A stretch of 64,000 nt of DNA from Myxococcota bacterium (GTDB taxonomy: Bacteria > Myxococcota_A > UBA796 > UBA9615 > JAKLKC01), in NCBI GenBank assembly GCA_023150875.1, contig JAKLKC010000014.1:5608-69607 (forward strand), in the 5' to 3' direction. Shown here in pieces: positions 19,202 to 22,325 of the stretch. A program made the translations under genes and the position numbers. The notes below the pieces were generated by a model. It was not told the origin of the DNA. It ran no database searches and saw only the letters and a list, made by a program, of their open reading frames with translations. How positions within the stretch are numbered: position 1 is the first letter of the stretch; the number at the start of each line of letters is the position of its first letter.

Positions 19202-19696
19202 ATGAACCTCTTCGCCTCGGATCCCGATCCCGTGGTGGCCGCGTTGGCCCTCGACGACCGCCGCGTGGTGAAGATGGCCACGGAGACGGCACAGATCCTC
19301 TGTACAGTCGCGCGGGCGCGGGGGATCCCGGCACCCTGGCGCCCCACGCACGCGCGCCACCCCACCGTCCTGTGGGTGTCACGGCGGCGAGCGAACTGGG
19401 ACTGGGCGTTGGCCCACGGGCTCGCCCTGGCCGACGAGTACCGCCACCGCTTCGGCCGCGAGCACGCCGCCCGGGCAGTGCTGGAGTGGGCAGCCCGGGA
19501 AGCGGCACCCCCCGCCGACGGCCTCCCCCTGGAGCCGTTCCCCCAGTGCATGCCCGAGGCCCTCCGGGGCACCGACCCCCACCAGGCCTACCGGCGCTTC
19601 CTGGGCCAGAAGTGGTCCCACGCCACCGTGGCCGGCCGCCCTCCCCGGTGGACACGACGCACCCCGCCGCCTTGGGCCTCCGCACCTACCTCCTGA
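19202..19696 (+). CDS. Conserved hypothetical protein (phage-associated type, MNLFxxDxDP N-terminus)
   Basis: Protein of 164 residues. Its N-terminus (MNLFASDPDPVVAALALDD, then RRVVKMATETAQIL) matches a recurring small family in phages and bacteria that usually begins with an MNIF-x-LD-x-DP-type segment followed by a DKHVVKM-like segment and a C-terminal PRWTRRxPPPWA. Both ends are present here. Some database entries label the family as endonuclease V / pyrimidine-dimer glycosylase-like, but I see no diagnostic catalytic motif and do not adopt that function. There is no clear ribosome site before the ATG. It marks the left side of the lower-GC region that leads to the caspase operon, so it may belong to that accessory segment. 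Confidence 0.6.
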   Translation: MNLFASDPDPVVAALALDDRRVVKMATETAQILCTVARARGIPAPWRPTHARHPTVLWVSRRRANWDWALAHGLALADEYRHRFGREHAARAVLEWAAREAAPPADGLPLEPFPQCMPEALRGTDPHQAYRRFLGQKWSHATVAGRPPRWTRRTPPPWASAPTS

Positions 19697-20311
19697 TGGT
19701 CGTACTCGACGCCTCGGGTCCAGGCACCGTGCTCGTCCACCGAGCGGCCGAGGGCCCGCACGAGGTCGGTCATCCACTTCGGCGGGGCCGCCGGTCTTCC
19801 TGGAGCCGGCGCACAGGCTCGCTACCGAAGTCATGGACGAGTCCGCTCCTGTGCGGCAGGATCGCCGCAGTCGGTCGGCCCTGCGCCGGCCAGGGAGGCG
19901 GCGGTGGCGGAACGGACGCTGACGACGGAGATGCGGTTGTTCGCCCCGCAGTGGGGACGGGGTCCGTCAACAGGGTCGTCTGCTCGATAACGGGATCGAA
20001 GCGGGCTCCGGTGGAATGAAGCGGGCGCGATTCGATGCAGCCTCGGAACAGTGGAGAGGGCACAACGCGTCGCCGTCCCCCTCGCGGCCATCCTCATGGA
20101 CGGCCGGATCGTCACCCCGTGAGATCTTGAGGCCGACCTCGTCTGGATCTGGCAGGGCTGGGAGGAGGGGAGGTTGACCGACGCCGTCGTCCGCGAGCCG
20201 GTGCTCAGGATGGCGGTGGCGATCAACGCGGCGACGACGAACACGTCGAAGGGGAAGCGGCGGTAGCGGATAGCGGCGGGTGACCGCGCCAGGACAGTCG
20301 CTCGTCGGGGT
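19697..20311 (+). other. Decayed accessory DNA without an intact gene
   Basis: This stretch has several frames broken by stops and no convincing complete gene. The most protein-like part is at 20051-20266 on the plus strand (listed separately). On the minus strand near 19690-19790 a short open segment reads as PKWMTDLVRALGRSVDEHG before losing sense. Composition shifts from the ~72% GC of the flanks towards lower GC. The pattern fits erosion of former mobile-element genes. Confidence 0.4.
20051..20266 (+). pseudogene. Possible gene remnant with internal stop
   Basis: From GTG at 20051 the frame reads 23 codons, meets TGA at 20120, and then continues as credible protein (DLEADLVWIWQGWEEGRLTD onward) to TAG at 20264. 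Residue use on both sides of the stop looks coding. No family is recognised. It could be a fragment of a phage or transposon gene; chance coding appearance in GC-rich DNA is the alternative. Confidence 0.25.
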
Positions 20312-21046
20312 CTAGGGTACGACCGCGAACGGGAAGTGGAATAGGCGACGTCCCCCTTCATAGACCGGGTTCTGGAGCATCGGGTCGAGTCGAGACTTCG
20401 CGATCCTGACGGCAGCCGGCACATGGAGTATGTGTGGACCGGGCGGTCTCTGACGGTCGATCCAGCTCTCGGTGCCCGTCACGAGGTTGTAGGTGAAGTG
20501 CCCGCCGATGATTCCCGAGTCCCCGGCGCTCTCACCAGGCGAGCAGGCGAAGACGATGGTCCTGCCCTTCTCGGCCGCGAGGATGGACTGATCGTAGAGA
20601 GCGCGGCATCGAGCTCGGTAGTGGTAGTCGGTGGTGCCAGCGATGACGGCCTTCGCCATCTTCTCCGTGAGCACCTGTGGCTCTGGCACCGGAGTTCGGC
20701 AGGCGTCGATAATCACCAACTGCCGCCGGGCGGAGAGTAGCAGGGAGTTGAGTGCGACGTCCTGATGATCGTTCACACACAAGTGCGTGTCATCGGACCG
20801 AGTGAACCCGTGCCCGGCGAAGAAGTAGAGGACGTAGTCAAACACCGGCGACGGGGCCGGCCCGTGGTGCTTCGGAATGAAGGGCTTCTCCTGGATGTCG
20901 ATCTCGTGCGGCTCCCAGGCTCCGCCATGATCGCTTAGCAGGAATGCCCTCATCCGCACCTTGTCGATCTTGACTCCGGGCAGGTGATCATCACCCGACA
21001 ACTGTGCCGCACCGACGATGTACGCCTTCCTTGCTACCTGAGCCAT
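20312..21046 (-). CDS. Caspase-like cysteine peptidase (C14 family)
   Basis: Protein of 244 residues with a caspase-hemoglobinase fold core. The catalytic His is His79 in DYVLYFFAGHGF and the Cys is Cys116 in LVIIDACRTP; the hydrophobic strands before each are typical of bacterial caspase-like/metacaspase proteins. The N-terminus KAYIVGAAQLSGDD matches the first beta-strand of the family. A downstream segment, TIVFACSPGESAGDSG, fits the substrate-pocket strand. No extra domain is attached, so it is a stand-alone protease. ATG at 21046 follows AGGAGG and lies one base after the stop of the membrane-protein gene, so the two form a tight operon. GC content is clearly below the flanks. Bacterial caspase-like proteins often act in regulated cell death; the target here is unknown. 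Confidence 0.85.
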   Translation of the reverse strand: MAQVARKAYIVGAAQLSGDDHLPGVKIDKVRMRAFLLSDHGGAWEPHEIDIQEKPFIPKHHGPAPSPVFDYVLYFFAGHGFTRSDDTHLCVNDHQDVALNSLLLSARRQLVIIDACRTPVPEPQVLTEKMAKAVIAGTTDYHYRARCRALYDQSILAAEKGRTIVFACSPGESAGDSGIIGGHFTYNLVTGTESWIDRQRPPGPHILHVPAAVRIAKSRLDPMLQNPVYEGGRRLFHFPFAVVP

Positions 21047-21047
21047 C

Positions 21048-21497
21048 TCAGCCCTCCTGTAGGTACTCCTTGACAAACTTTCGGAATCCCTGCGGATACC
21101 CTCGGATGTTCTCCGCCGGATGCCCGGGATGCTTCCACCATTCCTGGTGCCGAAGCACCAACTCCTTCACGCCAATCCGCTCCTCGATCTTATTCCGGTC
21201 TCCGTCGTGATATCGCCACGCACGTTCGAGGACGTTGAAGACGAAGACGCAGTAGGAGGAGTATCTTAGGAGCCTCTCGTCTCGGCTCGCCGGATCCCAC
21301 GACGCGCAGAACTCGTCGTCTTCAAGGTAGGGATACTCGATTCCGAGGCGGACGATCTCATCGACGCCCTGGTCGATGGAGTTCCACTCCGCCCGGCGTT
21401 GGATTATCCAGGCGGATACGAAACCACCGAACCCCGAGACGACCGATGCCACGATCGCGGACACGCCCGCGGCGTTGAGGAACTCCCAGAACGTCAT
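21048..21497 (-). CDS. Small membrane-anchored protein, operon partner of the caspase
   Basis: Protein of 149 residues with one N-terminal membrane segment (about 8-30, GVSAIVASVVSGFGGFVSAW) followed by a basic stop-transfer (IIQRRAEW) and a cytosolic domain. The domain is alpha-helical and rich in aromatic and charged residues (VFNVLERAWRYH, LRHQEWWKHPGH, GFRKFVKEYL). The pattern is reminiscent of DUF4760-like membrane proteins, but I cannot assign a family firmly. It precedes the caspase gene with a one-base gap. A perfect inverted repeat lies about 65 bases upstream of its ATG. The topology would let it act as membrane anchor, sensor or substrate for the caspase; this is inference. Confidence 0.65.
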   Translation of the reverse strand: MTFWEFLNAAGVSAIVASVVSGFGGFVSAWIIQRRAEWNSIDQGVDEIVRLGIEYPYLEDDEFCASWDPASRDERLLRYSSYCVFVFNVLERAWRYHDGDRNKIEERIGVKELVLRHQEWWKHPGHPAENIRGYPQGFRKFVKEYLQEG

Positions 21498-22248
21498 GCC
21501 GCCCTATACCGCGGTGCCCCTTCGCCGAGGCTACCATCGGTTGCTTGAGCCTATCGCAGTTCGCACCCCTGCGAAAGCCCCTCTCACTCGATACTTTCGC
21601 GCTCACGACCATTGAAGTTCCATCGGTCCGCAGGGTTGAGGGTCGGTCAGGATTTCGCGGGGTCGGCATCGCTGTCCTCGGCGGGGGGGCGAACGAGGTG
21701 AACCGGCCCTTGAACCCGGCGGCGATCTGCTCGGGCCGGAAGCGGATGTAGACCCGTTCAAGGATCGCGGACCTCGTCGTCTGGCGCATCGCGGCACTGA
21801 CTTCCGAGTGCCGGGCCCCGCTCATGGCCGCGATGGTGGCTAAGGTGGCCCGGCCGCTGTACGGGGTGACCGTCGTCGCCTCCCCTGCCAAGCCCGACCG
21901 CCCGGCGGCCTTCTTGATCGCGATCCTCAAGGACCCGATGCGATTCCCCTTCCAGACGAACGCGGGGCTGGATATCGGCTGACCGCACTCCTCCCACCAC
22001 CGGAGGAGTTCCCTCTCGGCCGCATCCGTCAGGGGGAGGGGTGCCGCCGAGGTCGCGTTCTTGCTGCCGGGGACGGTCGCCAGCTCTCGGCGGAAGTCGA
22101 TGAGCTCCCCGTCCATGGCGGCCACCTCGCCGGGGCGTGGACCGAGGCCGAGCTGGGTGGCGAAGAGGGCGCGATGGACCGGCGTGGCCGTGGCGTCGAA
22201 GAACGAGGGGGGACGGGTTAAGTGCGCGTCGCCTCTGTGGAATTTACC
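21358..22248 (-). pseudogene. Tyrosine recombinase (phage-type integrase) remnant
   Basis: The frame encodes the C-terminal catalytic half of a tyrosine integrase. Box I is visible as LGLGPRPGEVAAM, box II as TVTPYSGRATLATIA, and the nucleophile Tyr in ILERVYIRF near 21749. The N-terminal arm and core-binding domains are missing: the open frame runs straight into the 3' end of tRNA-Lys with no start codon before GTG at 22125. The usual box II His is Tyr and the LGH motif reads as MRQ, so activity is doubtful. The tail after about residue 145 looks non-coding and runs over the promoter region of the caspase operon, so a frameshift or lost stop is likely. It marks the tRNA as an integration site. 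Confidence 0.7.
21560..21575. promoter_or_regulatory. Perfect 16-bp inverted repeat upstream of the caspase operon
   Basis: TTCGCACCCCTGCGAA is a perfect 6-4-6 palindrome 63 bases before the operon's first ATG. It overlaps a weak TTTCGC-N17-TAGGCT promoter-like pair on the minus strand. It could be an operator. Confidence 0.4.
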
Positions 22249-22249
22249 T

Positions 22250-22325
22250 TGGTGAGCCGCCGGGGACTCGAACCCCGTACCCGCAGATTAAAAGTCTGCT
22301 GCTCTACCCGTTGAGCTAGCGGCCC
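22250..22325 (-). tRNA. tRNA-Lys (anticodon UUU)
   Basis: A 76-base tRNA with CCA encoded. The acceptor arm pairs GGGCCGC with GCGGCTC (one G-U pair), the D arm begins GCTCAACGGGTAGAGC, the anticodon loop is CTTTTAA with a five-pair stem (GCAGA/TCTGC), and the T arm contains GTTCGAGTC. The integrase remnant abuts its 3' end, the usual attachment position. Confidence 0.97.

Follow-up and report, generated by a model that had tools for sequence, protein, structure and literature searches.

Caspases are familiar above all from cell death in animals, and bacterial caspases of known role mostly depend on a separate signal-making enzyme or on a large sensor. Bacterial gasdermin systems (bGSDM) place the gene for a caspase-like protease beside the gene for a membrane-acting protein. 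Type IV Thoeris combines a TIR protein with a caspase-like protease, the executioner of abortive infection (PMC12847820), and System 4 of Kaur et al. 2020 (PMC7159879) is a predicted two-gene membrane-associated system in which a 5' gene encodes a single-transmembrane (single-TM) EACC1 protein and a 3' gene encodes a caspase. A pair of genes with a comparable layout lies on the minus strand of the window (the whole 64,000-nucleotide stretch of Myxococcota DNA that was analyzed):

21048..21497, minus strand: small membrane protein gene, 149 aa, intact open reading frame (ORF), the first gene in every intact locus
21047..21059, minus strand: ribosome-binding site AGGAGGG and one-base gap, read directly from the sequence
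20312..21046, minus strand: stand-alone caspase-like protease gene (peptidase C14), 244 aa, intact ORF, His79/Cys116

The original prediction had described a one-base gap with a strong ribosome site and a GC content lower than that of the surroundings, and both descriptions stand. The junction of the two genes reads TGA-G-ATG, and the AGGAGGG site serving the caspase gene lies within the 3' end of the membrane-protein gene. GC content is 0.60 in the membrane-protein gene and 0.62 in the caspase gene, so the pair, at about 60%, falls below flanks of 70 to 77%; the housekeeping genes nearby have 0.70 to 0.74. A further claim, that no system with only these two parts was known to have been described, has to be corrected, since the EACC1-caspase system was predicted with the same layout (PMC7159879). 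Both arrangements consist of a 5' single-TM protein and a 3' caspase with a predicted membrane-linked role in conflict, and 19 of 19 caspases in the family of the window protein match the EACC1-type profile NF047832, if distantly (best E = 7.8e-8). However, the window caspase scores 18.7 bits on NF047832 against a cut-off of 140, and the EACC1 domain (PF19953) was found at E ≤ 1 in none of the 17 members of the membrane-protein family. EACC1 is an alpha+beta domain, whereas the membrane protein of the pair is modeled as all-helical; EACC1-caspase proteins carry a variable effector domain behind the caspase, whereas the caspase of the pair ends with the caspase domain in 19 of 19 relatives; and EACC1-caspase systems occur mainly in Actinobacteria, the pair in Bacteroidota, Proteobacteria, and Spirochaetota. 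Because an EACC1 domain and a fused effector are both lacking and the caspase falls far under the cut-off, the pair is not a member of the EACC1-caspase system, although it probably works much like one. With the layout predicted before, it is the membrane-protein family and the effector-free caspase that set the pair apart.

The other described systems differ as well. Unlike type IV Thoeris, the window pair has no adjacent TIR protein or signal-making enzyme among the ORFs read from 14 to 28 kb, and its 244-aa caspase has no signal-binding domain. The partner protein, in contrast to that of bGSDM, is a 149-aa one-helix, all-helical protein with no PDB fold match at E ≤ 0.001. Unlike in CBASS, no CD-NTase lies beside the window pair, although one distant caspase relative (L069) has one.

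The downstream protein is, by profile, catalytic dyad, and modeled fold, a member of the caspase superfamily and a predicted protease. It passes the PF00656 gathering cut-off (31.5 bits versus 21.4; E = 1.9e-7), and His79 and Cys116, the residues that the original prediction had named, are invariant in an alignment of 19 relatives, as are Asp114 and Arg117. An AlphaFold model built from 17 sequences (pLDDT 80.9) resembles caspase-9, caspase-11, MALT1, and plant metacaspases in the PDB (Foldseek, E about 1e-7), which upholds its caspase call. A PDB sequence search with the single window caspase gave no useful match, and neither a pattern scan for the caspase by itself across genome contigs nor a scan of viral contigs with the caspase alignment led to anything useful. 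Asp114 lies two residues ahead of the catalytic Cys116, at the site of the acidic S1 residue in paracaspases and metacaspases. From this position we infer, by analogy, that the enzyme probably cuts after Arg or Lys and not after Asp. Two caspase subtypes can be told apart by the C terminus, type I ending in ...SSQQLIISINP and type II in ...FPFAV, and the window caspase belongs to type II. At two Bacteroidota loci (L013:4069-5970 and L014:5920-7802), one membrane protein is followed by tandem caspases with type I before type II, which suggests an ancestral or expanded three-gene form.

The upstream protein has a hydrophobic N-terminal helix at about residues 8 to 33, followed by an all-helical domain. 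One hydrophobic helix near the N terminus is the sole TM-like segment in 17 of 17 relatives, in keeping with the small single-helix membrane protein first proposed. The structural model is all-helical and confident over residues 31 to 149 (per-block pLDDT 81 to 96), and since basic residues follow the helix, the helical domain probably faces the cytosol. Invariant in the family are the motifs YPYLE and RY together with Asn88, His117, Trp121, and Tyr134; Phe63, Trp67, and Glu129-Asn130 are near-invariant. The nearest named family is DUF6082 (PF19560), matched weakly by 5 of 17 members (best E = 3e-4), but the window protein itself has no PF19560 match at E ≤ 1, and no paper mentioning DUF6082 was found in the open-licence literature. 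Because the fold search of the PDB with this model matched no solved structure, a sensing role for the membrane protein is a guess.

The two genes are conserved as a unit. To search 84,980 species genomes, we used an alignment of three sequences of the membrane protein alone, a query with which the caspases were unable to bias the pairing result. This search recovered 15 loci, 13 of them intact; at the other two (L024 and L025), the membrane gene is truncated or the locus ends at a contig boundary. A caspase gene lies directly downstream in all 13 intact genome loci and in one prophage contig (14/14), at a distance of −4 to +15 bp. The original prediction had named rare adjacency elsewhere as evidence against a module, and these 14 loci, together with copies on Leptospira interrogans plasmids, point the other way. 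Of 386 Bacteroidota genomes, only 15 contain a match to the caspase profile, so chance adjacency is negligible. Pairwise identities of the two proteins are correlated across 12 type I loci (r = 0.74, p = 0.0002), a correlation to which host kinship can contribute.

Hosts of the pair include Bacteroidota, an alphaproteobacterium, betaproteobacteria, and a Treponema (Spirochaetota), along with one prophage. The pair is rare, at about 1 in 400: each phylum sample of 379 to 399 genomes yielded one clear match, always the seed genome itself, and one further weak match in these samples (L033) was without a caspase. The membrane protein of L. noguchii shares 62% identity with its Methylophilus counterpart and 27% with that of L. 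interrogans, and sequence comparison plainly indicates that the pair has moved horizontally between phyla. Searches of phage records for both proteins gave nothing useful, and no paper describing the pair was found in the open-licence literature.

Related caspases also occur with other partners. The caspase profile found five further full-length relatives without the pair's membrane protein among the 386 Bacteroidota genomes. Two of these caspases come after a multi-TM protein, on a mobile element that also bears restriction genes, and another comes after a MobC-like gene. For example, a type II caspase and a 286-aa multi-TM protein overlap at L073:7600-9202, with a near-identical copy in L051/L072, and the mobile element at L073 carries ParA-like, integrase, and restriction-modification-like genes. 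Another caspase, at L070:5617-6705, carries a C-terminal TM helix of its own and lies behind a 78-aa one-helix protein, close to an apparent bacterial ubiquitin-like conjugation cluster (judged by eye). At L069:6115-8776, a caspase relative stands behind a CD-NTase (PDB match to the CD-NTase family, E = 1.4e-9) and a 2-TM protein in a CBASS-like operon. This 2-TM protein is unrelated to the window membrane protein; it was considered as a SLATT protein, for which PF18160 gave no match to it or to the control, and it is named here only by its helices. With multi-TM, one-helix, and 2-TM partners on record, members of this compact caspase family have repeatedly come to lie next to membrane proteins of unrelated kinds, in one case in a CBASS-like operon. 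Partner swapping of this kind, once in a CD-NTase operon, opens a direct way to test whether bacterial caspases work by turning on membrane effectors.

Taken as a whole, the pair is probably a so far undescribed cell-suicide or anti-phage module. More specifically, we give an even chance to the proposal that this compact, horizontally transferred pair works as a membrane-tethered caspase module, damaging the infected cell so that the phage infection is aborted. Adjacency, catalytic residues, membrane helix, and genomic contexts are observed in the sequences, whereas the trigger, the interaction of the two proteins, the substrate, and defense itself are part of the proposal. The membrane protein would keep the caspase quiet at the inner membrane, its conserved cytosolic domain would respond to an infection cue, and the released or clustered caspase would then cut cell or phage proteins, probably after Arg or Lys. 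A module of 149 and about 240 residues that moved as a unit between phyla would rank among the simplest caspase-run suicide devices and would be simple to assay in a laboratory strain.

The main rival, unlikely but worth weighing first, reverses the roles: the caspase would gate a membrane killer by cleaving the membrane protein, and the freed N-terminal helix would form a pore, following gasdermin-like logic with an unrelated substrate. Strict one-to-one pairing with the membrane protein and a helix rich in small residues in most relatives are what this mechanism would lead one to see, and the basic residues after the helix fit the inferred Arg/Lys preference, but the positive-inside rule alone predicts basic residues behind a helix and no single Lys or Arg of the linker is fully conserved. 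The strong conservation also sits in the soluble domain and not in the helix, while the multi-TM (L073), 2-TM (L069), and 1-TM (L070) partners of related caspases again favor a membrane killer. It is rather doubtful that the membrane protein is itself the executioner, a pore former with a single helix that its helical domain keeps inactive until the dedicated caspase sets it free, as a minimal two-protein analogue of pyroptosis unrelated to gasdermin. If this were true, the caspase family would be a trigger that could be exchanged among several membrane effectors of unrelated kinds.

Of special interest for a third reading are the Leptospira plasmids, where the pair is intact in L. interrogans, with the caspase directly downstream, and broken in two related species. 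The L. mayottensis copy has a truncated membrane protein and has kept its caspase; the L. noguchii copy has an intact-looking membrane protein, and of its caspase only the C-terminal part is left:

L006:7555-7860 and L009:5899-6676: broken Leptospira plasmid versions, a truncated membrane protein (L. mayottensis) and a C-terminal caspase remnant (L. noguchii)

A toxin-antitoxin-like arrangement, in which a toxic caspase and an inhibitory membrane protein would serve mainly to retain plasmids and islands, matches a two-gene operon with the possible antidote first, the presence of the pair on plasmids and in a prophage, and the other toxin-antitoxin pairs near the Leptospira copies. The broken copies speak against it: L. 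noguchii keeps the membrane protein without an intact caspase, and the L. mayottensis caspase persists with a truncated partner, which is hard to fit with a lethal unrestrained caspase and makes this arrangement less likely. We regard it as quite improbable. Behind the pair at L007:8832-11078 come a RadD/XPB-like helicase and then a 110-aa protein, an order common to L. interrogans and L. mayottensis, and these genes are perhaps parts of a larger unit.

For the abortive-infection reading, the neighborhoods of relatives in other genomes are informative, and the original prediction had looked to integrases and defense genes nearby as a check. Defense neighbors include Shedu (E = 1e-265), type IIG and type I restriction-modification, ApeA HEPN, bSEFIR (8e-109), DpnI, AbiU, AIPR, and the PADLOC candidate systems PDC-S05, PDC-S22, and PDC-S58, in a tally that is descriptive and without a matched background, and in which several matches are very strong and specific. 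Mobility signs near relatives include insertion sequences, plasmids, and a prophage integrase, and two other loci of the pair lie near a tRNA or tmRNA gene. Housekeeping contexts without mobility signs, the second outcome named beforehand as adverse, were thus not what the homologues showed; their contexts are mobile and defense rich. The window pair itself is flanked by housekeeping genes and no other defense genes were found near it, and both points were counted against a defense role. With defense itself a prediction, the two genes could instead encode a regulatory protease pair serving an ordinary membrane or stress process, but the rare and patchy distribution, the transfer between phyla, and the defense and mobile neighbors make this reading quite improbable as well. 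One of the proteins in the flanks of L006-L016 has a match to the family of thiol-activated cytolysins (PF01289, E = 2e-40). About 100 bp separate the end of the Pedobacter pair (L020:7252-7617) from a tmRNA gene, and such genes too are usual integration sites.

In the window, the pair lies between an integrase remnant and a gene-poor stretch, and the natural reading is that it occupies an acquired, partly decayed segment. On the upstream side are two features:

21718..22116, minus strand: integrase (tyrosine recombinase) remnant, phrog_1 E = 1e-8, residues 4-136 of a 255-aa ORF
22250..22325, minus strand: tRNA-Lys(TTT), 3' end toward the integrase remnant

The match of the remnant to phage integrases is confined to their C-terminal part (positions 309-442 of 611 in the phrog_1 profile), and the ORF (21358-22125, minus strand) stays open to 21358 beyond the matched part. 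An integrase remnant beside tRNA-Lys and decayed DNA on one side had both been proposed, and both were recovered, the latter as about 600 bp without a recognizable gene on the other side of the pair (about 500 bp at 19770-20300). The tRNA-Lys(TTT) gene is the probable integration site of the island. Because a search of the window for a duplicated tRNA end (att site) found no second copy, where exactly the island begins and ends is not proven; likewise, in a search for the empty site in relatives, 0 of 10 loci around the neighboring gene carried a tRNA at that place. A search of 379 genomes from the phylum to which the window belongs turned up no close relative, so the pair may be a relic that a decayed island has left in this genome. 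That it is a non-functional leftover is nonetheless highly improbable, for the truncated integrase, surroundings without recognizable genes, and lack of another defense gene in the island are set against frames, start signals, and family-invariant residues that are all intact in both genes. Within the gene-poor stretch, a frame at 19831-20424 (minus strand) contains RYRRFPFDVFVVAALIATA and is possibly a transposase fragment (judged by eye). On the far side of the decayed stretch, the ORF at 19202-19696 has a sub-threshold match to PF03013, a pyrimidine dimer DNA glycosylase family (E = 1.8e-4).
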